Shown here: one piece after another, positions 6,513 through 27,494 of the stretch
How the letters are laid out: every line of letters starts with the position of its first letter
Position numbering within the stretch: the stretch's first letter is position 1
NCBI GenBank assembly: GCA_919901555.1
Contig: CAKKPG010000044.1
Coordinates: 1-64,000, forward strand
DNA: 64,000 nucleotides
Direction: 5' to 3'
Source of the DNA: Nitrospiria bacterium
GTDB lineage: Bacteria > Nitrospirota > UBA9217
Notes under the pieces: model-generated
Told to the model about the DNA's origin: nothing
The model's database searches: none
The model's input: only the letters and a program-made list of their open reading frames with translations
Made by a program: the position numbers and the translations under genes

Positions 6513-9500
6513 ATGAACCTTTTTTCCCGCTTTATCAGTTCTGGTGTAAAAGTGCTTTCAAGGCTCTTCGGTACGGTGTCCTGGTCTCCTCCTCCGTGGA
6601 TGGCTTTCCTCAAGAACTTCTCTTCCAATATCAAGCATATCAAAGACATTATCTCTCGCCTTGTTCATACCGCGCGTTCCTTGGTCGACAAATATCTGAA
6701 AAAAATCATGAAACGAACGGCCATCGTCGTGCCGGCGGTTCTGGTGACCCTCACCCTCGTCGTCTTCTACGCGGTGGGTCGGTCCGGCGTGATCGAGGTC
6801 ACCGGCACCCAGCCCGGGCTTACGAAGCTCGAGGACGTTTTGAAGCCGGACCCGGTCCATATTCGCTTCAACGGTTCCGCCGCGCGGCTTGACCTGGTCG
6901 GGAAGGTCGTCACAAAAGGGATCACCATCTTGCCGGCCATCGAGGGCGATTGGAAGTGGGTCAGGGACGACCATCTCCTGTTCGTGCCGAAGGCGGACTG
7001 GGCAGTGGGCGAGAAGTATACGGTCAAGATGGACCGCTCCCTGTTCCCGGACCATGTGAAGCTCTCCACGTATACTTACACGTTCAAGACGCCGCCTTTC
7101 AACGCAGAGCTTACGACCGCCGAGTTCTATCAAGACCCCGAAGACCCGAAGATCAGGAAGGTCCTCGCCACGGTGAAGTTCACCCATCCCGTGGACGCGG
7201 CCTCGTTCGAGAAGCGGGTCCGCCTGCGCAGGTCCGACCAGAAAACGGGCTTCCTCGGCATCGGCGCGGAGACCTACCTCTTCACCGTGTCCTACGACAC
7301 GTACAAGGGCGAGGCCTATATCCATTCCAAATCCATGGACATCCCGGAGAAGGACATGGAGATGTTCATTACCATCGATTCAGGCGTCCACGCCGAGCGC
7401 GGCGGGCCCGAGACGGAGCGTGAGCTCAAGCAGGCCGTTACCATATCGGGAAAGTACAACTTCCTCCAGATCGAGTCCGTGGAGCTTACGCTCGTACGGA
7501 ACGAGCGCTACGAGCCCGAGCAGGTGATCGTGGTCCAGACCACAACAGGGGTGCAGGAATCGGAGATCGTCAAGAACCTGACCGTGTACGTCCTTCCCCA
7601 GGATCTGCCGCCGATCCAGGGGCAGGAGGGCGCAAAGAACTTTCGCTGGTCCGATCCCGCGAAGATCGGGCCTGAGGTCCTGGACCTTTCCCAGCGCCTG
7701 AAGCTCACGCCCCTGCCACGGGACCGGGAATACGCAGTGCTGCACAGCTTCAAGTACACGGCCCCTGCCGGCAGGTATCTTTTGATAAAACTGAACAAAG
7801 GCATCCAGGCCTTCGGCGGCTATCTCCTGGCCAAGGAATTCGAGACCATCAGCCGCGTGCCCGAAATTCCGCGGGAGCTCGGCATCATGCACAACGGCGC
7901 GATCCTGAGCCTGAGCGGCGAGAAGAAGCTTTCCGTGTACGCCCGGGACCTCGAGGCCGTGCGGTTCGAGCTCGGCCGTGTGCTGCCCGACGAGATCAAC
8001 CACTTGATGAGCCAGACGAGCGGCGACATCACGAGCCCCTATTTCTCCAATTACCAGTTCAACCAGGACAACATCTCCGAACGCTTCACCGAAATCCGGC
8101 AGCTCCGGCGCGAGGAGCCGGGAAAAACGCAGTATGTCTCCTTTGATTTCTCGCGGTATCTGAAGTCCGATTCGGGCGTGAACCGCGGTCTGTTCTTCTT
8201 CCGCGTCGAGGGTTGGGACCCGGAGAAGAAGCGGCCCACGGGCAAGAGCGACAAGCGCCTGATCCTGATCACCGACCTGGGCGTCCTGGTGAAGGACAAT
8301 GCCGACGGCACCCACGACCTCTTCGTCCAGTCCATCCACAGCGGCCAGCCTGTTTCCGGCGCGCGGGTGGACATCCTGGGCAAGAACGGCGTGTCCGTGT
8401 TCGGCACGACCACGGACGCGGATGGCCGCGCGTCCTTCCCGAAGCTCATTGACTTCGAGCGGGAAAAGGCGCCCACGGTCTATCTCGTCCGGAAGGGGAG
8501 CGATCTGTCGTTCCTGCCCTATGACCGCAGCGAGCGCAGGCTCAACCTGTCGCGCTTCGATGTGGGCGGCGAGGTGACCAGTGGCGAGCCGGGCAGGCTG
8601 AACGCGTACCTTTTCTCCGAACGGGGCATCTACCGGCCCGGCGACGAGTTCCATATCGGCATCATCGTCAAGACCGCGGACTGGAAACAAGGCGTGGCCG
8701 GCGTCCCGCTCGAAGCTGCGGTGACCGACGCGCGCGGACTGGAGGTCAAAAAGCAGAGGTTCAGCCTCCCGGCGACGGGATTCGAGGAGGTCCGGTACCA
8801 GACCGAGGAGACGGCGCCAACGGGAACGTATACGACGAGCGTCTACATCGTGAAGGACAACAAGCGAAGCGCGCTGCTGGGTTCCGCGACCGTGCGCGTT
8901 GAAGAGTTTCTTCCGGACCGTCTGAAGATCGCGACCCGCCTTTCAACGGAGCGGATGGAAGGATGGGTTTCGCCGTCGAGCCTGAAAGGCCTGGTCGTAC
9001 TCAAGAATCTTTACGGCACGCCTGCCGTGAACCACCGGGTCGCGGCGGACATCACCCTGTCGCCGGCCTTTCCGGCGTTCAAGCAGTACAAGGACTACAC
9101 CTTCTTCGATCCGCTCCGGACGGACAAGAGTTTCAACGACAGGCTGCAGGAAACGACGACGAACGAGCAGGGAGAGACCGAGTTCGAGTTCAACCTCGAC
9201 CGGTTCGACAAGGCCACGTACCGCCTCACCTTCCTGGCCGAAGGATACGAACTTGAAGGCGGCAGGGGAGTGAGTTCCGAAAGCTCGGTGCTGGTATCGC
9301 CGCTCTCCTATCTTATCGGGTACAAGCCCGACGGCGATCTGAAGTATATCAACAAGGGCAGCGGCAGGTCCGTGGAACTGATAGCCGTCGATCCCGCCCT
9401 CAAGAAGATATCCGTGTCCGGGCTCAAGGCCCAGATCATCGAGGTCCGCTACGTCTCCGCCCTGACCAGACAGAGCAGCGGCGTATACAAGTACCAGTCG

Positions 9501-12464
9501 GTCAAGAAGGAGATACCCGTGAGCCTCGCGGACCTTGCGATTTCCGCCCAGGGCAGGAAATTCAGCTTGCCCACGGGCAATCCCGGCGACTTTCTGCTGA
9601 TGGTGAAGGATGAAAAGAACGTGGAGCTGAACCGTATCGCCTTCAGCGTCGCGGGCAAGGGGAACCTCACCCGGAGCCTGGAGAAGAACGCGGAGCTCCA
9701 GATCAAGCTCAATAAATCCGATTTTGCTCCGGGCGAAGAGATCGAGATGCACATCCGGGCGCCTTACACCGGGGCCGGGCTCATCACCATCGAGCGCGAC
9801 CGTGTGTACGCCTCCCAATGGTTCAAAACCTCCTCCACCAGCTCGGTCCAGCGCATCCGCGTGCCCGCGAACTTCGAGGGCAACGGCTACGTGAACGTGT
9901 CCTTTGTCCGGGCCATTGACTCGCCGGAGATCTTCATGAGCCCCCTGAGCTACGGCGTGATCCCGTTCTTCGTGAGCCGTGAACGCCGGACCATCGCCAT
10001 CGAGCTCGACACGCCTGACCTGGCCCGGCCCGGAGAACCCTTCCGGATACGCTACAAGGGCAGCAAGCCGGGCAAGGCCGTGATCTTCGCCGTAGATGAG
10101 GGCATACTCCAGGTCGCGCGCTACCAGACGCCGGACCCCCTGTCGCACTTCTTCAAGAAACGTGCGCTGGAGGTGCGCACGGCCCAGATTCTCGACCTTA
10201 TCCTGCCCGAGGCCGCGCTGGTCCGCATGCTTTCTGCACCCGGGGGAGATGAGGACGCACGGGAGGCCATCGGCAAGAACCTGAACCCCTTTAAGCGAAG
10301 GCGCGACAAACCCGTTGTCTACTGGTCCGGCATCGTTGACGTCGACGGGACCTCCCGCGAGCTTACGTACCGCGTGCCCGACTATTTCAACGGCACGCTC
10401 CGCGTCATGGCCGTGGCGGTCTCGCCGGACGCCGTGGGCGCCGGCCAGAAAAAATCCCACATCCGGGGCCATTTTGTGCTCAGTCCGAACGTTCCGACCT
10501 TCGTCGCGCCCGGCGACGAGTTCACCGTGACCGTGAGCGTAGCGAACAACGTGGAAGGCTCGGGCAAGGACGCCCCGGTGAACCTGGAACTGACTACGTC
10601 GGAACACGTCGAAGTGCTCGATAAACCGGCGCAGGTCCTGAAGATCGCCGAGGGCAGGGAGGAGAGCGCGGCCTTTATCATCCGGGCAAAAGCCCTCTTA
10701 GGCTCGGCGCGGTTCACCTTCACTGCCTCTCTTGGAACGAATAAGAGCGCCTATTCCGCCGATGCGAGCATCCGGCCGCCCATGCCGTACGCGACCATTG
10801 TCGAGGGCGGCTCCTTCACGGACGACAAGGCTGTTGTCAAGGTGACGCGTACTATGTATCCTGAGCTGCGCACCCTCGAGGTCTCGGCCTCGCCGCTGCC
10901 GCTCGGCATCGCGCATGGACTCGTTGCGTATTTGAGCAAGTTCCCCTACGCCTGCACGGAACAGCTCGTGAGCCGGACCTTCCCGGCCATTGTACTCAAG
11001 AACCGGCCTGAATTCGGCTTTACGCACAAGAACGCCGCGGAACATCTTGAACAGACCATTCGCGTGCTGCGCGCCCGTCAGAACGCCGAGGGTTCCTTCG
11101 GGTTCTGGGCCGCGAATTCCTACGTCTCGGACTTCCAGAGCGTGTACGCCATGCACTTCCTGACCGAGGCAAAGGAACGCGGTTATGCCGTGCCGCCGGA
11201 GCTGATTACGCGGGGGCTCGCCTATCTCCATGCCCTGGCAAAGGGCGAGAGCGATTCCCTGCACAAGGCACGGACGCGCGCCTACGCCATCTATATCCTG
11301 ACCAGAAACGGCGTAGTAACGACCAATTACGTGACAGCCTTGCGCGAGCAGCTCGATGCTGCAAAGGCCACGAAGAAGTGGAAGAAGGACCTCGCCGGGA
11401 CGTACCTTGCTGCTGCGTACAAGCTGCTCAAACTCGATGATAAGGCCGACAGCTTGATCGGAGATTCGCGCTTCGGCCAGTCCGTCGAGGCGGATTACCG
11501 GTATTTTTATGACGGCCTCGCCCACGATGCGCAGTACCTCTCTGTCCTGGCAAGGCACTTCCCGGACCGGTTCAAGAACATCTCCGGTAAAGAGATACAG
11601 GCCGTCATCAATCCAGTGTCAGGCGGCAGTTACAACACCATCTCGTCGGCCTACGCGATCCTGGCCATGGACGCCTATGCCGGGGCAATCGGCGAAAAAG
11701 CCGCTGCTGATATCAAGATCAAGGAGATCCTCGACAAAGGAACGAAGGACCTCATTGTTTCCAAAGGGCTGTTCCCGAAAGCGGCCTTCTCGGATCAAGC
11801 AAAGAAGGTAAGCATCGAGAGCAAAAGCGACTATCCCACGTTTTACCAGGTGACCCAGGCCGGTTTTGACAAGGCCCTGCCGGACAAGGAAATAAAAAAG
11901 CAACTTGAGATTCAGCGCGAGTATCGGGACCTCAAGGGCAACGTCCTGACGAAGACGGAGCTGGGCTCTGAGATCGAGGTGCATGTGAAGATGCGCTCCG
12001 TGGGCTCGGGCACTTACTATAACGTGGCGATCGTAGACCTTCTGCCCGGCGGGTTCGAGGTGGTGCTGGCGAAGTCCCGCAGGGCTGCAGAACCAGTCCA
12101 GCCGCGCGAAATAGCGATGCGGGAGGGCATGCACGAACGCGAGGAAGGAGAGGGGGAAGGCGAGGGCGAAGTCGGCGAGAGCGCGGCGGAGGAGCATGAA
12201 TCGGAATCGCACTGGGATTCCCCCATCGGCACGGACAAGTCAACGTGGTCCCCCGAGTTCGTCGACATTCGCGAGGACCGGGTCGTGCTCTTCGGCAGCG
12301 TCGGCGATTCGGCCCAGGAGTTCGTGTACCGCATCAAAGCGACGAACAAGGGCAAGTATACCATCCCTCCGGCCTATGCCGAGTCCATGTACGACCGGAG
12401 CGTGCGGGCGCGGACGTTGCCGGGGACAATGATCGTTGAGGAGAAGAAGAAGGAAGAGAAGTAA
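6513..12464 (+). CDS. Alpha-2-macroglobulin family protein, membrane-anchored (A2M-1)
   Basis: 1983 aa; MG-type beta domains, thioester 'KFPYACTEQLVSR', N-terminal TM 'AIVVPAVLVTLTLVVFYAV'; SD-like GGGGGG before ATG 6513. Confidence 0.92.
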   Translation: MNLFSRFISSGVKVLSRLFGTVSWSPPPWMAFLKNFSSNIKHIKDIISRLVHTARSLVDKYLKKIMKRTAIVVPAVLVTLTLVVFYAVGRSGVIEVTGTQPGLTKLEDVLKPDPVHIRFNGSAARLDLVGKVVTKGITILPAIEGDWKWVRDDHLLFVPKADWAVGEKYTVKMDRSLFPDHVKLSTYTYTFKTPPFNAELTTAEFYQDPEDPKIRKVLATVKFTHPVDAASFEKRVRLRRSDQKTGFLGIGAETYLFTVSYDTYKGEAYIHSKSMDIPEKDMEMFITIDSGVHAERGGPETERELKQAVTISGKYNFLQIESVELTLVRNERYEPEQVIVVQTTTGVQESEIVKNLTVYVLPQDLPPIQGQEGAKNFRWSDPAKIGPEVLDLSQRLKLTPLPRDREYAVLHSFKYTAPAGRYLLIKLNKGIQAFGGYLLAKEFETISRVPEIPRELGIMHNGAILSLSGEKKLSVYARDLEAVRFELGRVLPDEINHLMSQTSGDITSPYFSNYQFNQDNISERFTEIRQLRREEPGKTQYVSFDFSRYLKSDSGVNRGLFFFRVEGWDPEKKRPTGKSDKRLILITDLGVLVKDNADGTHDLFVQSIHSGQPVSGARVDILGKNGVSVFGTTTDADGRASFPKLIDFEREKAPTVYLVRKGSDLSFLPYDRSERRLNLSRFDVGGEVTSGEPGRLNAYLFSERGIYRPGDEFHIGIIVKTADWKQGVAGVPLEAAVTDARGLEVKKQRFSLPATGFEEVRYQTEETAPTGTYTTSVYIVKDNKRSALLGSATVRVEEFLPDRLKIATRLSTERMEGWVSPSSLKGLVVLKNLYGTPAVNHRVAADITLSPAFPAFKQYKDYTFFDPLRTDKSFNDRLQETTTNEQGETEFEFNLDRFDKATYRLTFLAEGYELEGGRGVSSESSVLVSPLSYLIGYKPDGDLKYINKGSGRSVELIAVDPALKKISVSGLKAQIIEVRYVSALTRQSSGVYKYQSVKKEIPVSLADLAISAQGRKFSLPTGNPGDFLLMVKDEKNVELNRIAFSVAGKGNLTRSLEKNAELQIKLNKSDFAPGEEIEMHIRAPYTGAGLITIERDRVYASQWFKTSSTSSVQRIRVPANFEGNGYVNVSFVRAIDSPEIFMSPLSYGVIPFFVSRERRTIAIELDTPDLARPGEPFRIRYKGSKPGKAVIFAVDEGILQVARYQTPDPLSHFFKKRALEVRTAQILDLILPEAALVRMLSAPGGDEDAREAIGKNLNPFKRRRDKPVVYWSGIVDVDGTSRELTYRVPDYFNGTLRVMAVAVSPDAVGAGQKKSHIRGHFVLSPNVPTFVAPGDEFTVTVSVANNVEGSGKDAPVNLELTTSEHVEVLDKPAQVLKIAEGREESAAFIIRAKALLGSARFTFTASLGTNKSAYSADASIRPPMPYATIVEGGSFTDDKAVVKVTRTMYPELRTLEVSASPLPLGIAHGLVAYLSKFPYACTEQLVSRTFPAIVLKNRPEFGFTHKNAAEHLEQTIRVLRARQNAEGSFGFWAANSYVSDFQSVYAMHFLTEAKERGYAVPPELITRGLAYLHALAKGESDSLHKARTRAYAIYILTRNGVVTTNYVTALREQLDAAKATKKWKKDLAGTYLAAAYKLLKLDDKADSLIGDSRFGQSVEADYRYFYDGLAHDAQYLSVLARHFPDRFKNISGKEIQAVINPVSGGSYNTISSAYAILAMDAYAGAIGEKAAADIKIKEILDKGTKDLIVSKGLFPKAAFSDQAKKVSIESKSDYPTFYQVTQAGFDKALPDKEIKKQLEIQREYRDLKGNVLTKTELGSEIEVHVKMRSVGSGTYYNVAIVDLLPGGFEVVLAKSRRAAEPVQPREIAMREGMHEREEGEGEGEGEVGESAAEEHESESHWDSPIGTDKSTWSPEFVDIREDRVVLFGSVGDSAQEFVYRIKATNKGKYTIPPAYAESMYDRSVRARTLPGTMIVEEKKKEEK

Positions 12465-12962: not shown

Positions 12963-13020
12963 TCTCGATGTTCCGTTGCAATGATTTTCGCATAACGAAG
13001 CGGCGTGGGAGCTGAATACC

Positions 13021-13506
13021 ATGACATTCAGGCGCATTTTAGGATTCTTTTTCACTGATTTCCTGGTTACAACGGTTGTTATCGCAGTAACAGTGGCCAT
13101 ATTTGCGTCCACGATCGCACATACCATGAAGGTGGTAACGACAACTACGGCCGTGTGCGAAGTAATGAATAATTACAGGGCAGACATGTCGGCTTACTAT
13201 GCGCTGCGGGGGGACTGGCCGAGTAACATGGAAGAGTTGCACGCGCTGTTCCCGAACGAGTCACAGCGGACGAACGCCAACTTCGCTAAAAACATCCAGA
13301 TCATTGGCGGGGCGATAGACATACCCTTGCAGCGGCAATTGAGCGGAAAGACCCTTACCCTGCATCCTGCTACGCTTATCGACGACCCCACAGGTCCGGT
13401 CAAATGGGTGGCGGGCGCAGGCAACAGGCCGGATGGATGGTCGATAATCGGAGAAGACCATACCACGGTTGAAAAGGAATATGTCCTGAATTTACTTTCA
13501 CTCTGA
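13021..13506 (+). CDS. Pilin-like paralog lacking the canonical FTLIEL motif
   Basis: Hydrophobic N-terminus 'FFFTDFLVTTVVIAVTVAIFAST'; C-terminal 'GGAIDIPLQRQLSGKTLTLHPATLIDDPTGPVKWVAG' parallels the flanking pilins. Confidence 0.75.
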   Translation: MTFRRILGFFFTDFLVTTVVIAVTVAIFASTIAHTMKVVTTTTAVCEVMNNYRADMSAYYALRGDWPSNMEELHALFPNESQRTNANFAKNIQIIGGAIDIPLQRQLSGKTLTLHPATLIDDPTGPVKWVAGAGNRPDGWSIIGEDHTTVEKEYVLNLLSL

Positions 13507-13524
13507 GGGACGGGAGGCGATGAA

Positions 13525-14538: not shown

Positions 14539-14562
14539 ACGTTCTATAATCGGAGAGATGCC

Positions 14563-15045
14563 ATGATAAAATCCTCAAAAGGCTTTACCCTGATAGAGTT
14601 GCTGATCGTCATCTCCATTATCACCATCCTTTCCACCATGGCCCTGCCGTCGTACCAGGACCGGGTGATCAGGACGCAGGTGGCGCAGGCGATCGCCGTG
14701 GCGGAGATCGCCAAGAAGGACGTCGAGGACTATTACCGGGCAAAGGGAAGCCTGCCCCGGAACAACGCCCAGGCAGGATTGCCGGAAGCGAATAGAATTA
14801 TCGGCAACTACGTCAGGAGCGTTAAGGTCATTGACGGCTCCATAAACATCACCTTCGGCAACCGCATCAACAGGAACGCAGCGGATAGAATCCTGACCCT
14901 GCGTCCTGCCATTGTCAAAGACGCCCCGGTTGTGCCTATTGCCTGGGTATGCGGTTATGCCACGGTTCCACAGGGTATGACGGTGACGGCAAAAAACAAC
15001 TCTACGATCGCGGCGCGTCAAGTGCCGATAGATTGCAGGTATTGA
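14563..15045 (+). CDS. Type IV pilin-like protein
   Basis: 'KGFTLIELLIVISIITILSTMALPSYQDRV'; C-terminal domain similar to the pilin at 12513. Confidence 0.93.
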   Translation: MIKSSKGFTLIELLIVISIITILSTMALPSYQDRVIRTQVAQAIAVAEIAKKDVEDYYRAKGSLPRNNAQAGLPEANRIIGNYVRSVKVIDGSINITFGNRINRNAADRILTLRPAIVKDAPVVPIAWVCGYATVPQGMTVTAKNNSTIAARQVPIDCRY

Positions 15046-15143: not shown

Positions 15144-15341
15144 GTAGTGTCAAAATTTCTATGAAAAAGAGAGGGGAATACATGAAACAGAATCTCCAGA
15201 ACGTCAAGAGAAATCAAGAAAAAAACCCCTCCCAACCCCCCTTTGTAAAAGGGGGGCGAGGGGGGATTTAAGAACCGGCTTGTAAGATAAGGATTTTCTC
15301 AGCGTTCTCGGCGATCTCGGCGGTAAAACTTTTGACACTAC
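15144..15341. repeat. MITE-like 198-bp element with 12-bp terminal inverted repeats
   Basis: GTAGTGTCAAAA at 15144-15155 and TTTTGACACTAC at 15330-15341; contains the palindromic CCCCTCCCAACCCCCCTTTGTAAAAGGGGGGCGAGGGGGG segment. Confidence 0.6.
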
Positions 15342-15366: not shown

Positions 15367-18300
15367 ATGAATGTGGATCGTCTATTACATTACCGAAGGC
15401 TCAGCGTCCTGCGTTCTCTTGTTTCTTTCCTTCTTTTCTTCTCGTGCGGTTTCTTCGCTGACGACCTGCATGCCGCGCCATCGTCCTCTCCCGCCGTTTT
15501 GAGCAAAACCGATCTTCCCGCCCGGGGCCGCCAGGAATCTATTCTCACGATCAGGTCGTTCGGCAGGTATGCCGTTACCGCCAAGAGCGACCAGGGGACG
15601 GGGCTGCAGCTCATTGACCGCATGGCGGGACCGGGGACGATATCAGGGGCCGCAGGTGAGCGGGACGGCAGGCTCGATCTCTTCCTGGAGCGGGGCGACT
15701 ACAAGATCATCACCTCTGGCCATGACAAGGCTTCCGGGAGCGTTCACCTGGAAGCGCATTCTTTTCCGGAAAAGAACGCACCGCAGCCGCCATTGCTCGT
15801 CGAATACAAGCTGACCGAGACCGAGCTCAACGATTTCGAGCAGGCGTCTTACTGGCTCGAAATCAGGGAGCGCAAACGCGTCGTCCTGGAAGCAGCGGGA
15901 CGAAACCTTGCTGATCTGCGCTTATGGAAAGACGGCGCGTGGCTGGTCGATGCAACGCCGGTCATCACTACGGTGCAGCCGAAAACAGGCCAGCCCTTGC
16001 GGGTCTGCCGATTTACAGTCGATCTTGAACCGGGCCTGTATCTTCTCTCTGCGTACGGCGGCAGTGCCCTGCCCTGGGCCGAGGACAGCGGCCTTCATCC
16101 CTTCTATCTTCGCTCCGGTATTCCCCAACTGGGTTCGGTGACCCGGAAACGTCTCTTGATCAGCCCCTTCGGAACGGATCGCTTCATTGTTCCTGGATCG
16201 AGCACGTATTTCAGGATCGAACTGGCGGAAGCGCGCGAAATGTCCCTTCAGGCCGGATGGACCAACGGGAGCGATCCGTTCAGCAACAACGGGCCAGTGC
16301 AGAACATTCAGAAGAACTCATCGCCTCCCGTGGCCGAGATGCTGACGGGGGGAAGCAAAAGCGCGACGCATATCGTCACGCTCAGCGGCGAGGCCGGCAC
16401 GCCCTATGTGTTTCAACATTTCGAATCGAATTACCGCTATTCCTTTCAAGGGACCGGTGAGTACTGGATATCGAGCGTCCACTCGGGCCATCCGCAGGAC
16501 TCTGTGGACGCGACCGCGGTCCTGGTATCAGGCAGCGACACGTACCGGACCCGACCGCTGTTCGAGCAGACGATCGAGCTGGACCAGGCAACGGGATATT
16601 CACGCCGTGCAAATCTTCTCGACACGCTTACGCTTTTTCTCAAGATTAACGCGAAAGGCTCTTACCAGATCTTGTCACAGGGCGCTACCGCCCGTTTTCT
16701 CATCGAACCGTTTCTCTTGTCACAGCCCCGGGATTATGCGCAGCCCAAAGCGCGGCCGGACGGCTCCACGTGGGACCTCGATGCCGGCTACTATGTGCTG
16801 ACCATCCAGCCCGAGAAGAAGGGGATCATGGATTTGATCATCCGCCCCGCTTCCTGGTTAAGCTGGGTGTGGGGAAAACTCGACTTGAATAAGGGGAAAA
16901 CCGCATTGCCGGTCCGGGCGGCCGTCCGTTTCCCCCGGGTCCCCCTGAATCGCGATCTGTGGTACTCCGTGCACCTGAACCATCAGCCTGAAGTCAAAAC
17001 AGGGCTTGTGGTCCGCTCCCTGCCTCTGAACCTGATCGATCCGCTGCCCGTCACACAGCTGCCTGATGAATTGATGACCGTTCCGTTCGAGGTCTCCGAG
17101 GAAGGCACGCTCCGGGCAGAGACAGAAGACGGCTCGCTCATGGACCTTTCCGTGGACAACGGGCCGTGGCAAAAGACGTGCAGCGTGGGAGCAGGCAGAC
17201 ACTCCGTTTCCTTACGATCAGCTGCAAAGGGCACGATCAACTATTCGCTCGCCCTGGAACCGCGCAGGCTCAGCACCGGGACCCCGCTGCCGGCCCTTTC
17301 GCAAGCTGCGCTAGACAGCCTTCCAAAATTTCCGGTCCTGACGGACAGCAAGCCTCTCTATTTTGACCTGGACCGCAATTCTTCATCGACTTTCAACCTC
17401 CGGGCCGACAAATCTGAACTGTATCAGATCCAGTCCACAGGGCTCCTGGCCACGGACGGCAATCTTCGCAGCAGGACCACGCCGCGCTTCGTGCGGGAAT
17501 CGCAGAACGGTAAAGGCAGGAACTTCTTCATGCGGCAGTACCTGCATGAGGGCGATTACCAGATCACTGTTGCGAGCAATGGGCAGTCAAGAGGGCATCT
17601 CGGCCTGACCATGGAGAAAAGCGGTTTGATCCAGGCAGGTTTTCTCACGAACCGCACGCCTGCGCGCCTCTCGCTGGCATCAGGAAAAGCCGCCGCCTAT
17701 CAATTCATCATCACCAAACCGGGTGAATACCGGCTGCGGGCCTTCGGTCTCGGAAGGACGCTCAAATGCCGGCTGGAAGACAAGGACGGCTGGCCGGTTG
17801 TGACTCCCAACAGCAATGCCGATATCACGCGCGCATTTGATAAAGGCAGGTACCGGTTGATCATCCTGCCGGAAAGCACGGACGTCAGGATCGTGACCGT
17901 GATCGAACCAATACAGCGACCGCGGCGATTCAAGGGACACGGCCCCCACCAATTGCCGTTGGCCGTTACCGTGGACCATACCTGGATGGAGCCTGGATCA
18001 GGAAAAGCGCGCCGGCCCGACCAGTGGAAATTCGAACTGCCTGCGGACGGCGATGTCTCGATAGAGCTTAGCGGAGAGATGCAGGCCGATCTTCTCAGAG
18101 TCAATCCAGACGGCACGTCGAAACGCGCTGCCTTCATCCCGCCTGCACGGGGATGGCAAGGCAGGCTGCAGGCGGGTTCGTACCGCATCGACGCGGCCTC
18201 AGTGCGCATCAACAACCAGGCTGTCTACCGCGTGGCTGTCCGGCCTCTTCCCCTGATGGCCGGGCTGAGCCGCGAGGTCAGCACGCCGTCCGTCCTTCCT

Positions 18301-20808
18301 GTTGCGATCGGCCAGACGGGTTTGGTGGAATTGTCGTCTTTCGGCGGCGTTGACGTGAAGGCGCGGTTGACGACCGAAGACGGGGCCTTGATCGCTGAAA
18401 ACGACGACCGGCCCGATGACTGGAATTTCCATATCGCTGCGGCGCTGAAACCGGGAAATTATCGGTTATATGTCGAACCCGTCGGGTCCGGCCAGGGCGC
18501 CTGTAGCGTATCGGTCAGAGTCCCTAAAGAAGTGGAGAATAAAGCGCTCCTCCTGCCGACGAATACGAAGATAAAGCTCACGGATTCGGTCCAGCTTTTC
18601 CCGCTCACCCTGCCTGCCAAGGGAGAGCTGCTGATGCTGTCCGCACGGGCGCCGGAAAATGTCGGATTGGCGATCGAAGTCGCAGAGCAGGGCGGCTGGA
18701 AAACCATCGGATCGACATCAGGGCGCTTCGCCCATCTCGAAGCGCCCCTTCGCGAGCCCCTTGCACGACCGTCGAATGTCGCGTATCGCCTGCGCCTCTG
18801 GTCCATGGACCGGCGAGATACGGTTGTTGAACTCTCCGCGCTGTTCGTTTCTCCGCCTCAGTTCACCGAAGGGGACCTGAAAAAAGGCATCGACCTGTCT
18901 CTTGCCGGAGGGGCAGGATCATCCATTGCAGCCGCTGCAGTTCGGATTGAACGCGGCGGTTTGCTTCGCATACCTGAAGAATACCGGCGCCTGCGCTGGT
19001 CAGCAGATGCGCTCCGCCCATGCGAACGGCCGGAAAGCTTTCTGCCCGTTCAAGCAGGCTTTGTCTGGATCACAGAAGAAACAGCGCCGCGCAGCTCGGC
19101 GCCCGCTGTCCGGGCGGAGCGAGCGGGCCTGGGACCAGGCGAGGACAAGGCCATCCAGATCAGGATGCTCGGCCGGGAAAAGGTGCTGTGCGATCTTTCC
19201 TACGACGGGCGAGGTCCTGTTCTTCTCATTGCTTCATCGCGCATCGGACGGCCTGCTGTCGAGCTGATCGAGGGCAGCAGTGAAGCAGTAAATATCGACC
19301 GGCTTGTCGTGGGAAAGCACGGCTCTCTCAGCGTGGCGCTCCATCCGAAAAATCCTACTGCACGGCTCTGGCCGGCCTCTTCTGCTGAAGAACCCTTTGA
19401 AGTACGGCTTATGCAGATAGGGTTTCCTGCGCCGGAACCCGTTTCCGGCAAAGAAGGTCTGAACGGCGCGATCGAGGGAAAGAAGGCGCGAAGGTATGAA
19501 CTTTCGAAAGGCAAAAAACGCATACGGCTTTCTCTGGGAGAAGGCCTTGTTGCGGCGCTGCTGAAGGGCGATGCCGTCGCGAGCGTTCATTGGGCTGAAG
19601 GTAATTCATTTACGGAAACCCTCGAAACAGATGCCGACCGCCTGCTTCTGCTTCACACGCGGGATGGTGAGGACCATTATGCGATCGAATACGCTTCCCT
19701 GACAAAGGACTTATTCACTCGCTCTCTTGCGATCGGTGAGCCTTTTGAGCGGGTCATGCAGGACTCAGGAAGAATGCGAATGTCCATTGCCGCGGGAAAA
19801 ATACCCGGAGACAGCCGCAGGTCCCTGCATGTCAGGGGTGGCAAGAACGCGGTCTTTACGGACAATGCCGGCAAGGTCGTCGCTGGCAATGATATGGTGA
19901 TCGGAGAACAGGGCGGCGTGCTGGTTGTCGAGCATGGACCGGGCGTACTGCTGTCCTGGCTGGACAGGCCGGGAGAGGAGGCTGCCGATCTCTGGGCTAC
20001 AAGCGAGAAGCCCGAAAGGACGTCTGTAACGCTGCCTGCCCTGCTTTCTCTGGACGGCAGAATGCACGCTTACAAGATCGACACGGCCAAACCCGTCATG
20101 CTTCACGTGCGCAGCGCCACGCCCCTGGCAACGTACCTGGACCGCGGCGAGAAGCCGCCTGATGTCGAGGTCTATTCCCAGGGAGTCACGCTCGACGCCT
20201 ATCTGCCCAAGGGAGCCGCGGAGCTGCGGCTGCGGGCCCTTGCAGGAGGCAGCATGTCGGGACAGGTTGCTCTTTCCAGTTCCCCCGTCATTCCCACGGA
20301 CGAAGGCCTGGGGCCCGAGGTGCTGCTGGCGCCCGGCGCAGCGAGGCTGTTCTCTTTCACCGTCCAACAGGAAGGCGTGATCGGCGCCGGCGTGAAAGCT
20401 GATTCCGACAGCATTGACATGGAGATCCTAAATAGTGCCGGCGCGGTCATGAGCAAGGGCGTGGCCCAGATGCTCCGCCTGAAGCCGGGCGTTTACTTGA
20501 TGAAACTGCACGCCCCTGATGCCGCAGCGCCCGTAAAAGCACGGCCTGCGCTCGTGGGCCTCAGGATGCCGGATACAGGACCGCCGCCGGAGGAGATCAG
20601 GAAATATCTGTCTCCTGATACGGAAATGCCTTCTGCTTATTCGAGCCGCAGGAGCAGTGTCCCGCAGGACAGGGTTTACGAAAGCCCGGGCGAACCCGCG
20701 TATGACAGCCCGGCGCCTGCGCCGGAACCGGAGAACGGCGAAGGCATGAATGAGGGTGCTGAGCAGATGACCGAGCCGGGAAGCGGTGAAGGGGAAGAAG
20801 TTCAATGA
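15367..20808 (+). CDS. Giant secreted hypothetical protein of repeated beta-sandwich-like segments
   Basis: ~1813 aa; hydrophobic N-terminal signal; recurring 'PGxYxL'/'GDYxI' strands as in PPC-like domains; ATG 15367 has an AGGGAGG SD. Confidence 0.8.
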   Translation: MNVDRLLHYRRLSVLRSLVSFLLFFSCGFFADDLHAAPSSSPAVLSKTDLPARGRQESILTIRSFGRYAVTAKSDQGTGLQLIDRMAGPGTISGAAGERDGRLDLFLERGDYKIITSGHDKASGSVHLEAHSFPEKNAPQPPLLVEYKLTETELNDFEQASYWLEIRERKRVVLEAAGRNLADLRLWKDGAWLVDATPVITTVQPKTGQPLRVCRFTVDLEPGLYLLSAYGGSALPWAEDSGLHPFYLRSGIPQLGSVTRKRLLISPFGTDRFIVPGSSTYFRIELAEAREMSLQAGWTNGSDPFSNNGPVQNIQKNSSPPVAEMLTGGSKSATHIVTLSGEAGTPYVFQHFESNYRYSFQGTGEYWISSVHSGHPQDSVDATAVLVSGSDTYRTRPLFEQTIELDQATGYSRRANLLDTLTLFLKINAKGSYQILSQGATARFLIEPFLLSQPRDYAQPKARPDGSTWDLDAGYYVLTIQPEKKGIMDLIIRPASWLSWVWGKLDLNKGKTALPVRAAVRFPRVPLNRDLWYSVHLNHQPEVKTGLVVRSLPLNLIDPLPVTQLPDELMTVPFEVSEEGTLRAETEDGSLMDLSVDNGPWQKTCSVGAGRHSVSLRSAAKGTINYSLALEPRRLSTGTPLPALSQAALDSLPKFPVLTDSKPLYFDLDRNSSSTFNLRADKSELYQIQSTGLLATDGNLRSRTTPRFVRESQNGKGRNFFMRQYLHEGDYQITVASNGQSRGHLGLTMEKSGLIQAGFLTNRTPARLSLASGKAAAYQFIITKPGEYRLRAFGLGRTLKCRLEDKDGWPVVTPNSNADITRAFDKGRYRLIILPESTDVRIVTVIEPIQRPRRFKGHGPHQLPLAVTVDHTWMEPGSGKARRPDQWKFELPADGDVSIELSGEMQADLLRVNPDGTSKRAAFIPPARGWQGRLQAGSYRIDAASVRINNQAVYRVAVRPLPLMAGLSREVSTPSVLPVAIGQTGLVELSSFGGVDVKARLTTEDGALIAENDDRPDDWNFHIAAALKPGNYRLYVEPVGSGQGACSVSVRVPKEVENKALLLPTNTKIKLTDSVQLFPLTLPAKGELLMLSARAPENVGLAIEVAEQGGWKTIGSTSGRFAHLEAPLREPLARPSNVAYRLRLWSMDRRDTVVELSALFVSPPQFTEGDLKKGIDLSLAGGAGSSIAAAAVRIERGGLLRIPEEYRRLRWSADALRPCERPESFLPVQAGFVWITEETAPRSSAPAVRAERAGLGPGEDKAIQIRMLGREKVLCDLSYDGRGPVLLIASSRIGRPAVELIEGSSEAVNIDRLVVGKHGSLSVALHPKNPTARLWPASSAEEPFEVRLMQIGFPAPEPVSGKEGLNGAIEGKKARRYELSKGKKRIRLSLGEGLVAALLKGDAVASVHWAEGNSFTETLETDADRLLLLHTRDGEDHYAIEYASLTKDLFTRSLAIGEPFERVMQDSGRMRMSIAAGKIPGDSRRSLHVRGGKNAVFTDNAGKVVAGNDMVIGEQGGVLVVEHGPGVLLSWLDRPGEEAADLWATSEKPERTSVTLPALLSLDGRMHAYKIDTAKPVMLHVRSATPLATYLDRGEKPPDVEVYSQGVTLDAYLPKGAAELRLRALAGGSMSGQVALSSSPVIPTDEGLGPEVLLAPGAARLFSFTVQQEGVIGAGVKADSDSIDMEILNSAGAVMSKGVAQMLRLKPGVYLMKLHAPDAAAPVKARPALVGLRMPDTGPPPEEIRKYLSPDTEMPSAYSSRRSSVPQDRVYESPGEPAYDSPAPAPEPENGEGMNEGAEQMTEPGSGEGEEVQ

Positions 20809-20841
20809 AATAAGAGCGGAGTAAAATAAATCGGTCAACTC

Positions 20842-20925
20842 GTCATTGCGAGCGAAGCGAAGCAATCTCGTTCTTAATACGGCCGTGAAAGATTGAGATC
20901 ACCGCGTCGCTCCTCGCAATAACGG
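20842..20925. repeat. Palindromic intergenic repeat (GTCATTGCGAGCGAAGCGAAGCAATCTC…GAGATCACCGCGTCGCTCCTCGCAATAACG)
   Basis: Imperfect inverted repeat read directly; resembles a family widespread in environmental bacteria. Confidence 0.7.
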
Positions 20926-20988: not shown

Positions 20989-23900
20989 ATGCCTAACGGT
21001 CTTTCAGGAACGCTTCTGTCTCTGCTGATTCTCGCCGCGCCCGTTGTCGCCCACGCTGAATCCCGGCAGACAGCAACGAATATCCGGCCAGAATTTGCTT
21101 CGGAGACCACGGTGATCCCCGAACATTTTCTCCGGCGTTGGGACCCGGTCACGATTTTCTTTTCCCGCGAACGGGGACGGAAGGAAGGCGGTCCTGAAGA
21201 CCATCCCAAAAAATACGTTACCGTGGACACGGACCATCCGGGTGCGTATCGCTGGATCGACGGCAGGACGCTCCAGTTCCAGCCCTCCGAGCCCTGGCCG
21301 TCGCTGTCGCGCTTCATCTGGACCGTGGACAAAAAGAGCACGGCGCTCTTCACCCTGATGGAAGCGCCGGTCTCCACGGAACCGTCCGACAGAGCGGAGG
21401 GACTGGAACAGGTGAAGAGCATCACGCTGACCTTTGCGGAGCCGCTCGATCCGAAGGCCCTGGCAAACATGGTATCGCTCGAATTGCGGCCCTTGCCCGG
21501 CGTAGGGTCCGATAAATCCCGATGGCTCACCAAGAATGACTTCACCTTCAAGGAGATCGAGCGGCGGTCGCGCACGGACAGAGCCTCGTACGTGCTGATT
21601 CTCAAGGAACCGATTCGCCCCGGGATCAGGACGATCGTGCGCATGCGCCTTGCGCTGGATGACAAGGAAACGGAATCGTTCCGGGAGTTTTCTTTCGCCA
21701 CTGCCGAGCCCTTTCGGGCCGTGGCCATGGGAGCGAGGGGGAGAAGATATCCTGTTACGCCCGAAGGCTCGCATTATACGCGGGAGCAGGCCATTCGCGG
21801 CGAATCTTCGGACCGGAGCATTGTGGTCGATTTTTCCTCAACGCCGGATTTGGATGCGGACGCACTGACGGTGACGGGAAGAAACCTCGTCAGGTTTACG
21901 CCTGCCGTAGCAAAGCTGGTGTACCGGCTCGAAGGAAGCCAACTGGTCGTCACGGGTGACTTTGCCCGTGATACACTATACAAAGTGTCGCTTTCGCCGG
22001 TTGCGGTCAGGGACCAGCGGGGAAAAAATCTTGAGATGAAGGGTGCGAGCGAGGTGTACGTATATTTTCCCCGCAGCCAAAGCTATGTCCGTATCAGAAC
22101 GGGACAGGGTATCGCCGAACGGCTCGGTAAGCAGATGATCCCCGTGGAAGGCAGAGGGGAAGAGCGCGTGGACCTGCGCATATATCCCATACCGTCGCTC
22201 GACCGGTCGTTCTGGCCATTTACGGGCCAGCCGCTCGAAACAGACGACGGTCGTCGCCCGCCCGGACCCGGTGAAGAGCCTGAACCTTTTACCGCGCCCG
22301 ATCAATCGCCCGGAGCAGCCGAACTGCTCCGCCAGATTTTCACGCTGGGCTCGCCGCCCGTATCGGCGCTCGTTTCGCTGCCGCTTAAAAAGGAAGGCGG
22401 TTCGGCGTCTTTCGGTCTTGATCTCACGCCGCACTTGGCAAAGCTTTCGGGAAAGGAACGGTCAGGTGCATATCTGATCGGCCTGCGCGATGTCGCAGCA
22501 GGAAGCAGGCGTTCGTGGATGCGGTTGCAGGTCACGGACCTGTCGCTCACGACGATCGAGGAGCCCGATGCGGTCAAATATATCGTCACGTCGCTTCAAT
22601 CGGCTCAGCCTGTTTCCAAGGCCCGAGTGCGCGTCGAAGGGACCCTGTACGATCACGGCAAAACAACATGGACGACCCTGGCAGACGGGACCACTGACGG
22701 TGACGGCATATTCCGCTGGCGCGCTCCGGGCCGCGACACGTCCCGCGAGCAAAGGTCCGTGCGACGTATCGTGGTGGAGAAGGACAAGGATATGCTCGTC
22801 CTCGATCCTGCAAATCCGCCGGATATGTATTACGACAACCAATGGTCCGTCGACCGGTCGCTCTGGCTCCAATGGACCCAGGAATCGCTTGCCGGCCGGG
22901 GGCCGCAGCCGCAGATAATGAGCCATATCTTCACGGACCGGCCCGTGTACCGTCCGGAAGAAGAAGTCCATATCAAAGGGTATCTTCGCAAACGGGATAA
23001 AGGACGTCTGCAGCCGGTCAAGACAACGGGTTGGCTGATCGTCGAAGGACCGGGTGATGTTTCCTGGAAATATCCCGTGGCCATGACCGACCTGGGCAGC
23101 TTCTACCATGACTTTTCGGAACAAGACCTTCCCACGGGAACGTACTCGGCCCATCTGGAAAACCAGGACCGCACGGAAAGCTACGGCCGGGTCACCTTCC
23201 AGATGGAGGCCTACCGGCTCCCGCTGTTTGAGGTGAACCTGCACGCGCCGGACCAGATTTCGCTGGATAAGGAATTCGAAGTCAAACTCGCTGCCACCTA
23301 TTACGCAGGCGGCAATGTCGGGGGCCAGCCCGTGGAATGGCGCGTAACGCAGTACCCCCTGGCATGGACGCCCAAGAAGCGGGAGGGGTTCCTCTATTCA
23401 TCGGACGGACGTTTTTCGCGGACCGAACGGTTCCAGGCGTCGCCCCGTTTAGAGAAGCAGGACACGACGGACGAGAACGGTTCCGCTTCGATCCTGCTGA
23501 ATCCCGCGCTGGAGCTGACGGCGCAGCCGCGGACCTACGTGGTCGAGGCAACGGTCACGGGAGCGGACGACCAGACGGTGACGGCCTCGAAGTCGGTCTC
23601 GGCGCTGCCTGCATTTGTGCTCGGCATGAAGGTCCCGCGCTATATCGAGCGGGCAAAGGAGATCACGCCGGAAATCATCGTCGTGGGTCCGGATGACACA
23701 CTGCTGGCGGGCAAGGAAGTGACGGTGCGGCTTCTGCGGCGGGAATGGCACTCGGCGCTCAAGGCCAGCGATTTTTCCGATGGCGTGGCCCGCTACGTGA
23801 CCGACGTGGTTGATGAAAAAGTTTCCGAAAGGACGGTCAAGAGCGCGGCGGCGCCGGTGAAGGTGACGTTTCCGGTCACCCGCGCCGGCGTATATGTCGT

Positions 23901-26802
23901 CGAACTGGAGGCCCACGACAAGCTGGACCGCGCGCAGGTCGTGCGCGTCGATCTCTACGCGGGCGGGGATCAGCGTGTGGCCTGGCCCAAGCCTGTTACG
24001 CGCGTATTCACCGTGACCCCGGACAAGGCAAAATACGATCCCGGCATGACTGCGTCGATCGTTCTGCAGAGCCCGTTCCAGAAGGCCCGGGCCGTTGCCG
24101 TCGTTGAAACGCCTGACGGCAACAAGTATCACTGGATCGACGTAGAAGGAGGCACGGCGGTCTTCAACATTGCGATCCAGAGCAATTACGCGCCGCGTTT
24201 GCCTGTTCATTTCATCCTGATGCGCGGCCGGTTGCCCGGCACCGGACCCGCTCCGGGAAGCGGCATGGATGCGGGCAAGCCGGAAACCATGGCTGCCACG
24301 GCCTGGCTCGACGTCAATCCTCTGGCGCACCAGGCGAAGGTGGAGCTCGAATATCCTCCCGTGGCCCGTCCGGGAGAAAAAATTAGGGTTGCCATCTCGC
24401 TCAAAGATCCTTCCGGCAAACCTCTCTCCGGAGAGGTCACGCTCTGGCTCGTCGACCAGGCCGTTCTGTCCTTGGGCAAGGAACAGCGTCTCGATCCCGT
24501 GCCTGATTTTATCAGGCAGGTCCATTCCTTCATCAAGGTCCACGATTCGCGAAACCTGGCCTTCGGCAGCCTGCCTTTTGCGGAGAACCCCGGCGGCGAC
24601 GAGGGCAAAGAAGAGGAGTCACTGCTCGAAAAGGTCACGGTGCGGAAGAATTTCAAGACCGTGCCGTACTATAATCCTCTCATCACCGTGGGTCCCGACG
24701 GAAAGGCGGTCGTGGAAATCACGCTCTCCGACGATTTGACGAACTTCAAGCTGCGCGCCAAGGCAGCGTCCGGATCCGAGCGTTTCGGCTTCGCCGTGGG
24801 GCACCTATCAGTGAGATTGCCGCTCATCGTGCAGCCGGCCCTGCCGCGGTTCGTGCGGCCCGGCGACGTTTTTACGGCAGCGGCCATCAGCAGGATTGTG
24901 GAAGGAAAGGATGGTCCGGGTGAAGCGGAGTATAAGGCGCAGGGAGCGAAGATCAACGGTCCCGCGAAACAGCAGTTGCAATGGACCGGGAGCAAACCGC
25001 TGCGCATAGAATTTCCCGTGGTAGTGGCTTCCCCTGCCTATACCGCGGAAGGCAAACCATCGGTCCAGAACGTAACGTTCACCGTCGGCGTGCGCAGGAA
25101 TTCGGACAATGCAAAGGACGCCTTCGAGGTCAAGCTGCCGATCCGCGAGGACCGGGGCCGGGTATCGAAACGGACGCTCACGGAACTGAAGCCTGCGGAG
25201 CCGCTCGTCATCGAGGCTCTGAAGGAAACGGCGCGTCCGGGCACGCTCACGCGCTCGGTGCTCGTCTCCGATCAGCCGGGCCTCATAAAGATGGCGGCAG
25301 GTCTCGATTTCTTTATGCATTATCCCTACGGGTGCACTGAGCAGCAGCTCAGCCGAGCCCGCGTGTATATGGCCTTGCGGAAATTCCGGTCGCTGCTGAA
25401 ACAGGAAGGTTCGGACAAGGACATGAAACGGACCGTAAACGAGGTCCTGAGCCTAATCCCGACGGTGATCGATGGGAACGGCCAGGTCGCGTTCTGGCCG
25501 GGGTCCCGGGGGTATGTCAGCCTGACGGCCTGGACCGTGCAGTTCCTGGTGGAAGCAAAAGAGGCAGGCTTCACGATCGATGAAAAGATTCTCACGCAGC
25601 TTACGAGCGCCCTTGAGCGGGCCTTGCGCTCCGACTACAGCCAGTTCATAGACGGAGAGTCCTTTGCCGAGCGGGTATGGGCGCTCCTCTCCCTGACCCG
25701 TGCGGGCAAATACAACTCAGCCTATGCTGCCGAGTTGGCGAGAAAGGCGCAGTACCTGAACCTCGAAAGCATTGCCGCGGTCCTCTATTCCTTCGCCCTT
25801 GCCAAACAGAACTCGTCCACGGCAGAGCAGCTCGAAAAGGCGCTCTGGGACGGCATTGTGGTGCGCCTGTACCAGGGCCGTGAAATGTACGGAGGCTTGC
25901 AGAAAGAAATAACGACGCGGAACAATCTGATCCTCCCGACCGAAACGCGCACCATAGCGCAGATGACCCGGGCTGTTGCGCGCTACGATGCGAAGAACCC
26001 GCGGCTTCCGCTGCTCGTCGATTCCCTCGTAACGCTCGGGCGGGACGACGGATGGGGGACCACGAACGCGAATGCGGAGGCGCTCCTGGCCTTGTCGGAA
26101 ATGCTCAAACCGCCCTATTCAGGCGCCAAAGCGGCCCAAGTCCGTGTCACGCTTGACGGAAAAGAGCAGACGATACGCCTGGGACCGGACCTTCCGCTGG
26201 GCTTTGTTTCAGGAACCGGCCCCGGGGCAGGGGAAGCGCTTCTTCAAAGCAAGGCAGGCCCGAGGCCTGTGGCCGTGCGCGTGGACACGTCCTATGTGCC
26301 TGCAGAAGACGGCAGCAAGGTAACTGCCCAGAGCAGCGGGTTCGTGGTGACCCGGGAACTGCTCCTGATAAAGAAAGATGGGCCTCCCGTAAAAATCCCC
26401 TTGACCGAAGCAGGCACGACGCAGACCTTCGCAGCGGGCGACATCGTGGAAGAACACGTGCAGGTCGTGAATCCCAAGGAACGCCACTACGTGGCCGTGA
26501 CTGTGCCGCTGGCGGCTGGCATGGAGCCGCTCAACCCGAAGCTCCAGACCGCGCCGCCCGAAGCCGCGCCTGCAGGAAAGATGACGCTCAACCCGACCTA
26601 TGAAGCCTATCAGGACGATCAGGCCGCATTCTATTACAGCGTGCTGCCCGCAGGGACCTATGATTTCTATTTCAGGACCAGGGCAACGGTAAGCGGTTCA
26701 TTCATCCAGCCGGCGGCCAAGGCGGAGATGATGTACGACGCAGCGATTTTCGGGATGTCGAATGGGGCGAAGATAGTCATTAGTGGAAAGGCGGGGGAGT
26801 AA
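20989..26802 (+). CDS. Alpha-2-macroglobulin family protein, secreted (A2M-2)
   Basis: Thioester 'FMHYPYGCTEQQLSRARV'; signal peptide 'LLSLLILAAPVVAHAES'; ATG 20989 preceded by AAGGAGAG. Confidence 0.93.
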   Translation: MPNGLSGTLLSLLILAAPVVAHAESRQTATNIRPEFASETTVIPEHFLRRWDPVTIFFSRERGRKEGGPEDHPKKYVTVDTDHPGAYRWIDGRTLQFQPSEPWPSLSRFIWTVDKKSTALFTLMEAPVSTEPSDRAEGLEQVKSITLTFAEPLDPKALANMVSLELRPLPGVGSDKSRWLTKNDFTFKEIERRSRTDRASYVLILKEPIRPGIRTIVRMRLALDDKETESFREFSFATAEPFRAVAMGARGRRYPVTPEGSHYTREQAIRGESSDRSIVVDFSSTPDLDADALTVTGRNLVRFTPAVAKLVYRLEGSQLVVTGDFARDTLYKVSLSPVAVRDQRGKNLEMKGASEVYVYFPRSQSYVRIRTGQGIAERLGKQMIPVEGRGEERVDLRIYPIPSLDRSFWPFTGQPLETDDGRRPPGPGEEPEPFTAPDQSPGAAELLRQIFTLGSPPVSALVSLPLKKEGGSASFGLDLTPHLAKLSGKERSGAYLIGLRDVAAGSRRSWMRLQVTDLSLTTIEEPDAVKYIVTSLQSAQPVSKARVRVEGTLYDHGKTTWTTLADGTTDGDGIFRWRAPGRDTSREQRSVRRIVVEKDKDMLVLDPANPPDMYYDNQWSVDRSLWLQWTQESLAGRGPQPQIMSHIFTDRPVYRPEEEVHIKGYLRKRDKGRLQPVKTTGWLIVEGPGDVSWKYPVAMTDLGSFYHDFSEQDLPTGTYSAHLENQDRTESYGRVTFQMEAYRLPLFEVNLHAPDQISLDKEFEVKLAATYYAGGNVGGQPVEWRVTQYPLAWTPKKREGFLYSSDGRFSRTERFQASPRLEKQDTTDENGSASILLNPALELTAQPRTYVVEATVTGADDQTVTASKSVSALPAFVLGMKVPRYIERAKEITPEIIVVGPDDTLLAGKEVTVRLLRREWHSALKASDFSDGVARYVTDVVDEKVSERTVKSAAAPVKVTFPVTRAGVYVVELEAHDKLDRAQVVRVDLYAGGDQRVAWPKPVTRVFTVTPDKAKYDPGMTASIVLQSPFQKARAVAVVETPDGNKYHWIDVEGGTAVFNIAIQSNYAPRLPVHFILMRGRLPGTGPAPGSGMDAGKPETMAATAWLDVNPLAHQAKVELEYPPVARPGEKIRVAISLKDPSGKPLSGEVTLWLVDQAVLSLGKEQRLDPVPDFIRQVHSFIKVHDSRNLAFGSLPFAENPGGDEGKEEESLLEKVTVRKNFKTVPYYNPLITVGPDGKAVVEITLSDDLTNFKLRAKAASGSERFGFAVGHLSVRLPLIVQPALPRFVRPGDVFTAAAISRIVEGKDGPGEAEYKAQGAKINGPAKQQLQWTGSKPLRIEFPVVVASPAYTAEGKPSVQNVTFTVGVRRNSDNAKDAFEVKLPIREDRGRVSKRTLTELKPAEPLVIEALKETARPGTLTRSVLVSDQPGLIKMAAGLDFFMHYPYGCTEQQLSRARVYMALRKFRSLLKQEGSDKDMKRTVNEVLSLIPTVIDGNGQVAFWPGSRGYVSLTAWTVQFLVEAKEAGFTIDEKILTQLTSALERALRSDYSQFIDGESFAERVWALLSLTRAGKYNSAYAAELARKAQYLNLESIAAVLYSFALAKQNSSTAEQLEKALWDGIVVRLYQGREMYGGLQKEITTRNNLILPTETRTIAQMTRAVARYDAKNPRLPLLVDSLVTLGRDDGWGTTNANAEALLALSEMLKPPYSGAKAAQVRVTLDGKEQTIRLGPDLPLGFVSGTGPGAGEALLQSKAGPRPVAVRVDTSYVPAEDGSKVTAQSSGFVVTRELLLIKKDGPPVKIPLTEAGTTQTFAAGDIVEEHVQVVNPKERHYVAVTVPLAAGMEPLNPKLQTAPPEAAPAGKMTLNPTYEAYQDDQAAFYYSVLPAGTYDFYFRTRATVSGSFIQPAAKAEMMYDAAIFGMSNGAKIVISGKAGE

Positions 26803-26834: not shown

Positions 26835-27494
26835 ATGAATAAAGAAATAGAACCTCTTATCCCGAAACACGGCGGATACCGCAAGCTGAAGAGCTTTCAG
26901 CTCGCACAGCTTGTCTATGACGTAACGGTCCGGTTTTGCGGCCTGTACATAGACAAGCGCAGTCGCACGCACGATCAGATGGTGCAGGCGGCGAGGAGCG
27001 GAGTGCAGAATATAGCCGAGGGCAGCCAGGCGTCGGGGACCTCCAAAAAAACGGAACTCAAACTGACCAATGTGGCGAGGGCGAGTCTCGAGGAGTTGCG
27101 TCTCGACTATCAGGACTTCCTGCGCCAGCGGGAATTGCCCGAATTGTCTCCGGATCACCCGGCGCTGGTGCGCTTTAAGGCGAAGCGATGTTCATCGCTC
27201 GAGGACCTGCGCGCCTGGGTGGAGGAAGAAAAAGAAAAGCACTGGGACAAACACGGACGGACACGGACTGCCACGGAGGGGTCAAGAAAAAATCGGTCGT
27301 CCGTGTCGGTTGGTGATGGTCTGTGTCAGTCCGTGTCAGACTCTATGCTGGTCGCCAATGCAGCGCTTTCTCTGCTGAACCTTTGCTGTTATTTGCTTGA
27401 CCGCCAGCTTTCTGCTCAGGCAAAGGCTTTTGAAACCGAAGGCGGTTTCACTGAGCGGTTGTACCGGGTCCGGAGCGCGAAGCGAAAAAACTGA
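26835..27494 (+). CDS. Four-helix-bundle (23S rRNA IVS-like) protein with an inserted repeat
   Basis: 'MVQAARSGVQNIAEGSQASGTSKKTELKLTNVARASLEELRLDYQDFLRQR' and 'EGGFTERLYRVR'. Confidence 0.85.
   Translation: MNKEIEPLIPKHGGYRKLKSFQLAQLVYDVTVRFCGLYIDKRSRTHDQMVQAARSGVQNIAEGSQASGTSKKTELKLTNVARASLEELRLDYQDFLRQRELPELSPDHPALVRFKAKRCSSLEDLRAWVEEEKEKHWDKHGRTRTATEGSRKNRSSVSVGDGLCQSVSDSMLVANAALSLLNLCCYLLDRQLSAQAKAFETEGGFTERLYRVRSAKRKN

Follow-up and report, generated by a model that had tools for sequence, protein, structure and literature searches.

The founding paper on the bacterial A2M-pbpC pair is reportedly that of Budd et al. 2004. Bacterial alpha-2-macroglobulins (A2Ms) are usually split into two types, and the tie between A2M and PBP1C has so far been drawn from the adjacency of their genes, without a known bridging component. 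Type I A2Ms occur with PBP1C (PMC4498604, PMC3328433, PMC5764988, PMC10734482), and a role in periplasmic defence and repair has been proposed for this system (PMC4498604, PMC5764988). Type II is represented by the mag operon of Pseudomonas aeruginosa (PMC5764988), which has six genes (MagA-F) and no CXEQ, and in which MagA, MagB and MagF bind MagD (PMC5764988). No third gene upstream of A2M-PBP1C was described in the literature that we searched, in which subscription journals were poorly covered. Here we report a gene, termed X, whose product is probably a third and so far overlooked part of the known cell-envelope defence system, as judged from its fixed place before one kind of A2M and from the near-constant PBP1C that follows.

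Within the window, the whole 64,000-nucleotide stretch of DNA that we analysed, X is the first and largest gene of a forward-strand module (15367..20808), followed by an A2M (A2M-2, 20989..26802) and, as the third module gene, by a PBP1C-type bifunctional peptidoglycan synthase with Transgly, Transpeptidase and BiPBP_C domains (27500..29923). Like the type I system of E. coli (yfhM-pbpC, ECAM/PBP1C), it combines a thioester CXEQ A2M with a subsequent PBP1C on the same strand. A2M-2 matches bMG3, MG2, A2M_BRD, A2M and bMG10 above the Pfam cut-offs, bait and thioester domains included, and carries the thioester motif CTEQ. PBP1C is adjacent, split off only by a 23S_rRNA_IVP-like CDS on the same strand (26835..27494; Pfam 33.5 bits against a cut-off of 33.8), which was found in the genome of the window only and is missing from the other loci. 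A relative (G298) has a different CDS of 194 aa at this position. In contrast to the module, E. coli has no X, and whereas YfhM has the lipobox LAGC of a lipoprotein, A2M-2 and the X-linked A2Ms in general have no such anchor. The A2M and PBP1C of the module also form separate deep-branching clades, the former with an N-terminal region of its own. The likeness to the mag operon lies in a periplasmic A2M with several co-encoded partners, some of which in mag bind and stabilise the A2M (PMC5764988). Unlike mag, the module has PBP1C, usually keeps the thioester (CXEQ is present outside Rhizobium) and has X and PBP1C as the neighbours of A2M instead of MagA/B/C/E/F; X itself falls into no curated Pfam or NCBIfam family over its length. 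We file the module as a variant of type I A2M-PBP1C, with X added as an undescribed family that has PPC-like repeats.

The X gene is real and intact. Its frame ends at 20808 and opens either with ATG at 15367, giving 1813 aa, or with GTG at 15349, giving 1819 aa; the ATG is preceded by a GGGAGG Shine-Dalgarno sequence and is favoured, and homologs support the reading frame. By inspection, the N-terminus (15367..15480, about residues 1-38, ending in LHAAP) is a Sec signal peptide, in agreement with the original prediction of a secreted protein, and the segments quoted there were all recovered in the translation. A motif search for the canonical lipobox [LVI][ASTVI][GAS]C found none in X, nor in nearly all of its homologs; three Rhizobium X proteins have LSGC early in the signal region, which could be a lipobox. 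X contains seven cysteines. At its other end lies an acidic low-complexity tail (20605..20805), D and E making up 22% of the final 68 residues. The tail had been likened to an acidic stretch in the other macroglobulin of the window, A2M-1, but it is missing from Rhizobium X and several other homologs; since it is not conserved across the family, the likeness looks coincidental, and we rejected the tail as a functional tie to A2M-1.

A promoter scan around the X region gave no excess over shuffled sequences. A palindromic REP/ERIC-like repeat (CGTCATTGCGAGCGAAGCGAAGCAATCTC...) occupies 20841-20925, between X and A2M-2, and has 14 copies in the genome, with 0 for the reversed control. A second palindrome, around CCCCTTTGTAAAAGGGGGG, was seen at 15228-15270, just upstream of X.

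We then compared the loci of X homologs. Twenty-five loci, the window among them, had enough DNA for the gene after X to be read; they represent seven named lineages, and five of them are closely related Rhizobium loci. In all 25 the next gene encodes an A2M and lies on the strand of X. This bears out the linkage to A2M that the original prediction had suggested looking for in orthologs. PBP1C comes next after A2M in 18 of the 19 loci with room for it. In the single exception, L069, X and A2M occur with no PBP1C nearby, which suggests that PBP1C may be dispensable for the function of X. Genes beyond the module vary from locus to locus, while X-A2M is fixed. At many junctions the stop codon of X overlaps the start codon of A2M, as ATGA or TGATG. 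This arrangement, with X before A2M, suggests coupled synthesis and would suit a dedicated chaperone or stabiliser of A2M that keeps the thioester or the bait region from being cleaved too early. Such a role has a precedent in MagB, which MagD needs for its stable maintenance (PMC5764988). Yet some 1800 residues of repeats are very large for it, and the Rhizobium module persists after the loss of the thioester cysteine (PTEQ), so we regard a pure stabiliser as improbable.

The original prediction placed X between two macroglobulins and suggested that it may be a partner, substrate or scaffold for them. The position is literally correct. However, A2M-1 (6513..12464, forward strand), a thioester A2M of another kind, held by an N-terminal transmembrane anchor, is a neighbour outside the module, separated from X by pilin and T2SS-F genes, and only A2M-2 is linked to X elsewhere. 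Orthologs of A2M-1 sit in relatives that lack X, together with a PBP1C of their own, and are never used by the X clade, and A2M-1 stands on a separate branch of the A2M tree; we thus rejected a link of X with A2M-1, which is native to this Nitrospirota family and has its own PBP1C. The partnership is strongly supported for A2M-2, with strict linkage and perfect co-occurrence, and is unsupported for A2M-1. The genes between A2M-1 and X (12513-15045), three pilin-like and one T2SS-F, make up a small type IV pilus-like cluster that itself lacks an ATPase.

Co-occurrence was examined by running an A2M-2 profile on the same 297 Acidobacteriota and 274 Gammaproteobacteria genomes in which X had been sought, with the two best candidates per genome scored. 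Among the Acidobacteriota, X-type A2M was found in 12 genomes at 1997-3080 bits, with the rest at <=553 bits, and these were exactly the 12 genomes with X; 163 others had other A2Ms and no X. Likewise, the same 4 Gammaproteobacteria hold both X and X-type A2M, and 50 others have other A2Ms and no X. With both sets pooled, the 16 X genomes are the 16 with X-type A2M, against 213 more that lack X and whose A2Ms are of other kinds. That the two sets coincide has naive odds of about 1e-18 for the Acidobacteriota and 1e-5.5 for the Gammaproteobacteria, counting A2M-positive genomes only and ignoring shared ancestry. In the trees, the A2Ms linked to X group in a single clade (100/100), as do the PBP1Cs linked to X (100/100). 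Neither clade takes in E. coli YfhM/PbpC, A2M-1 with its PBP1C, or the same genome's third A2M/PBP1C pair. Pairwise identities correlate at 0.96 for X-A2M, 0.96 for X-PBP and 0.955 for A2M-PBP (0.955-0.962; Mantel p 0.0002). X, A2M and PBP1C diverge in parallel, and the pairing of X is restricted to the single A2M clade that holds A2M-2.

The A2Ms of this clade have features in common. Top matches of non-X A2Ms to the A2M-2 profile begin at about position 500, indicating from alignment that the N-terminal region of about 500 aa is specific to the X-linked clade. A2M-2 itself, with a likely ATG start at 20989 after AAGGAG, is a secreted protein; neither its mature N-terminus nor those of X-linked A2Ms with a confident start carry a lipobox, the sole regex match being IVSC in L069. 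Every complete X-linked A2M has the thioester motif CTEQ or CAEQ, save those of Rhizobium (PTEQ). Part of the N-terminus (A2M-2 profile residues 51-116) is weakly like an L,D-transpeptidase N-terminal domain (E 0.004), possibly reflecting a shared Ig-like wall-associated domain. Elsewhere in the genome of the window (G000:C91, L083 2-12526), a 4175-aa frame appears to encode a giant macroglobulin-like protein, with a weak bait-region match of 23.1 bits against a cut-off of 22.7.

As for X itself, it was originally described as built of repeated beta segments, and its internal repeats proved genuine. The G-x-Y-x-[hydrophobic] hairpin motif occurs in 12 copies, whereas 2000 shuffles averaged 0.8 and never exceeded 5. 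Profile-profile self-comparison (hhalign) of 110-aa segments from a 25-sequence alignment yielded off-diagonal matches of up to 96% probability, while reversed and column-shuffled profiles gave <=7%. The matching pairs (953-1048 with 730-845, 674-749 with 975-1050, 658-738 with 760-836, and 760-833 with 1644-1714) revealed a periodicity of about 85-110 aa. Repeats are clearest in residues 600-1050 and 1560-1720 and weaker in 50-180 and 425-490. The best-supported tandem PPC-like array, about four units at residues ~655-1058 (17329..18540, forward strand), gave hhalign probabilities of 88-96%; the C-terminal all-beta half (residues ~1059-1746; 18541..20604, forward strand) has a PPC-like repeat near 1640-1720 (85-88%). 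Over most of 1060-1550, profile self-comparison detected no repeats, and the structural model there is still all-beta.

AlphaFold2 predicted an all-beta fold for residues 955-1750 (pLDDT 79.6, pTM 0.65). The model of residues 40-1060 is also all-beta but weak (pLDDT 62, pTM 0.33), with residues ~755-1010 mostly at pLDDT >=70; the repeat region 655-1058 mostly reaches ~70-91. In Foldseek searches the best discrete-domain match for both halves was 5iku (probability 1.00), although TM-scores by target were low (0.30-0.38) and the N-terminal model is weak. 5iku is the tandem collagen-binding domain of ColG, a PPC-type beta-sandwich. X resembles the PPC family (PF04151; ColG) in the size of the repeat unit, the DD...G-x-Y hairpin signature and the 5iku match, and differs in having no attached protease and many units in tandem. 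PF04151 scored 17.5 bits on X of the window, below the gathering cut-off of 25.9; among 25 homologs, 9 matched at E<0.1 and one exceeded the cut-off (26.3 vs 25.9 bits, over a partial profile). Hence the tandem PPC-like beta-sandwiches of the original prediction are supported by the repeats, the all-beta models and the ColG match, and less so by formal PPC membership, which is marginal by sequence. The models support X as an all-beta protein of tandem PPC/jelly-roll-like domains. Foldseek also gave long alignments, to chains of C3, C5, A2M and the axoneme, which we discarded for their TM-scores of ~0.1 or less, and X as a degenerate or divergent A2M was rejected (hhalign probability 0.2% against A2M).

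No known enzymatic motif was found in X. Searches of Pfam and NCBIfam returned no curated family above cut-off and none spanning the full length, and no relative was found among the sequences of solved structures in the PDB, even with a 25-member profile. With homologs at 25-79% identity, X appears from these comparisons to be an undescribed family of secreted beta-sandwich repeat proteins. The match to a ColG collagen-binding domain, together with patchy cross-phylum spread and a plasmid location, could point to a secreted or surface adhesin or matrix-binding protein that travels as a passenger of a mobile A2M-PBP1C cassette. We consider this very unlikely. X matched no adhesin in searches of Pfam, NCBIfam and PDB sequences, let alone a characterised one over its full length, X-A2M stays constant while its neighbours change, X, A2M and PBP co-diverge, and PBP1C is an enzyme of the periplasm.

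Few genomes have X, and its spread across phyla is patchy. Homologs occur in MAGs labelled Elusimicrobia, Desulfuromonadales, Nitrospirae, Acidobacteria, Gammaproteobacteria and Proteobacteria, as well as on seven Rhizobium plasmids. By genome, X was found in 2 of 296 Nitrospirota, 12 of 297 Acidobacteriota, 4 of 274 Gammaproteobacteria, 2 of 247 in the phylum of the Desulfuromonadales MAG and 1 of 199 in that of the Elusimicrobia MAG. The Nitrospirota and Elusimicrobia copies are 78% identical; such identity across phyla and the plasmid copies suggest that the whole module moves by horizontal transfer, with mis-binning as the alternative for single MAGs. On a plasmid of Rhizobium sp. C104 (L032 11488-25433), X, A2M and PBP1C are each in pieces, owing either to decay of the module or to sequencing errors.

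The Rhizobium version differs from the others in two proteins, with gene order and spacing unchanged. Its A2M has PTEQ in place of CTEQ and has thus lost the thioester cysteine, and its X has an LprI domain (LprI/DUF1311, PF07007) fused to the N-terminus, at 33-36.5 bits against a cut-off of 22. LprI was found neither in X of the window nor in any non-Rhizobium homolog scanned. The domain was named for lysozyme inhibition, which is disputed (PMC7933661). Salmonella ScwA, an LprI-domain protein, has a role in cell-wall homeostasis and leaves lysozyme resistance unaffected (PMC7933661), so that LprI points to peptidoglycan but proves no inhibition. X could nevertheless be a second inhibitor, its beta-sandwiches binding and blocking peptidoglycan hydrolases or lysozyme-like enzymes while A2M deals with proteases and PBP1C with repair, the three proteins working in parallel with no complex. 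Besides the LprI domain of Rhizobium X, the operon shared with a peptidoglycan synthase and the altered levels of the murein lytic transglycosylase MltD caused by an LprI-domain protein (PMC7933661) are consistent with this. On the other side, most X proteins have no LprI, ScwA gained no lysozyme resistance from its own (PMC7933661), and X follows its A2M clade perfectly even where PBP1C is missing (L069), which argues for A2M as the partner of X. Inhibition of peptidoglycan hydrolases is thus an unlikely explanation; it ranks before the pure stabiliser, and the adhesin comes last.

More likely than not, and ahead of all the alternatives, X is a periplasmic docking or scaffold subunit of the anchor-less A2M within an X-A2M-PBP1C module. 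Since the X-linked A2Ms have no lipid anchor and have about 500 N-terminal residues of their own, the most economical interpretation has X take on the docking of the trap. While the linkage is observed, we infer the physical complex of X with A2M and the mechanism. X would be stoichiometric and would bind A2M probably through this N-terminal region, and its beta-sandwiches, of a carbohydrate- or protein-binding type, would hold the protease trap at peptidoglycan, near membrane-bound PBP1C. In line with the defence-and-repair hypothesis for A2M-PBP1C (PMC4498604, PMC3328433), A2M would catch proteases that enter through a breached outer membrane and PBP1C would mend the peptidoglycan, while X would hold the two in one place. 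The assembly of X on A2M could be likened to that of MagA, MagB and MagF on the type II A2M MagD. Against docking by X counts the absence of a membrane anchor from X, and the support from Rhizobium is lessened by the confinement of LprI to that genus. With LprI present on X and no thioester cysteine left in the A2M, the Rhizobium module may serve chiefly to protect against damage to peptidoglycan, or it may trap proteases without a covalent bond. More tentatively, and at somewhat less than an even chance, X-A2M-PBP1C may constitute a third bacterial macroglobulin class, in which a giant repeat protein and an A2M without an anchor form an obligate complex in the periplasm. This complex would spread horizontally and link the trapping of proteases to the repair of peptidoglycan, and in Rhizobium it would have been re-purposed with LprI and without the thioester.

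Strictly linked and co-diverging, X is a candidate bridge between A2M and PBP1C. It makes a joint function of the two testable, by pull-down and by deletion in culturable Rhizobium, whose version of the module, with the thioester lost and LprI gained, amounts to a natural experiment in which the essential part of the function can be told from the rest.
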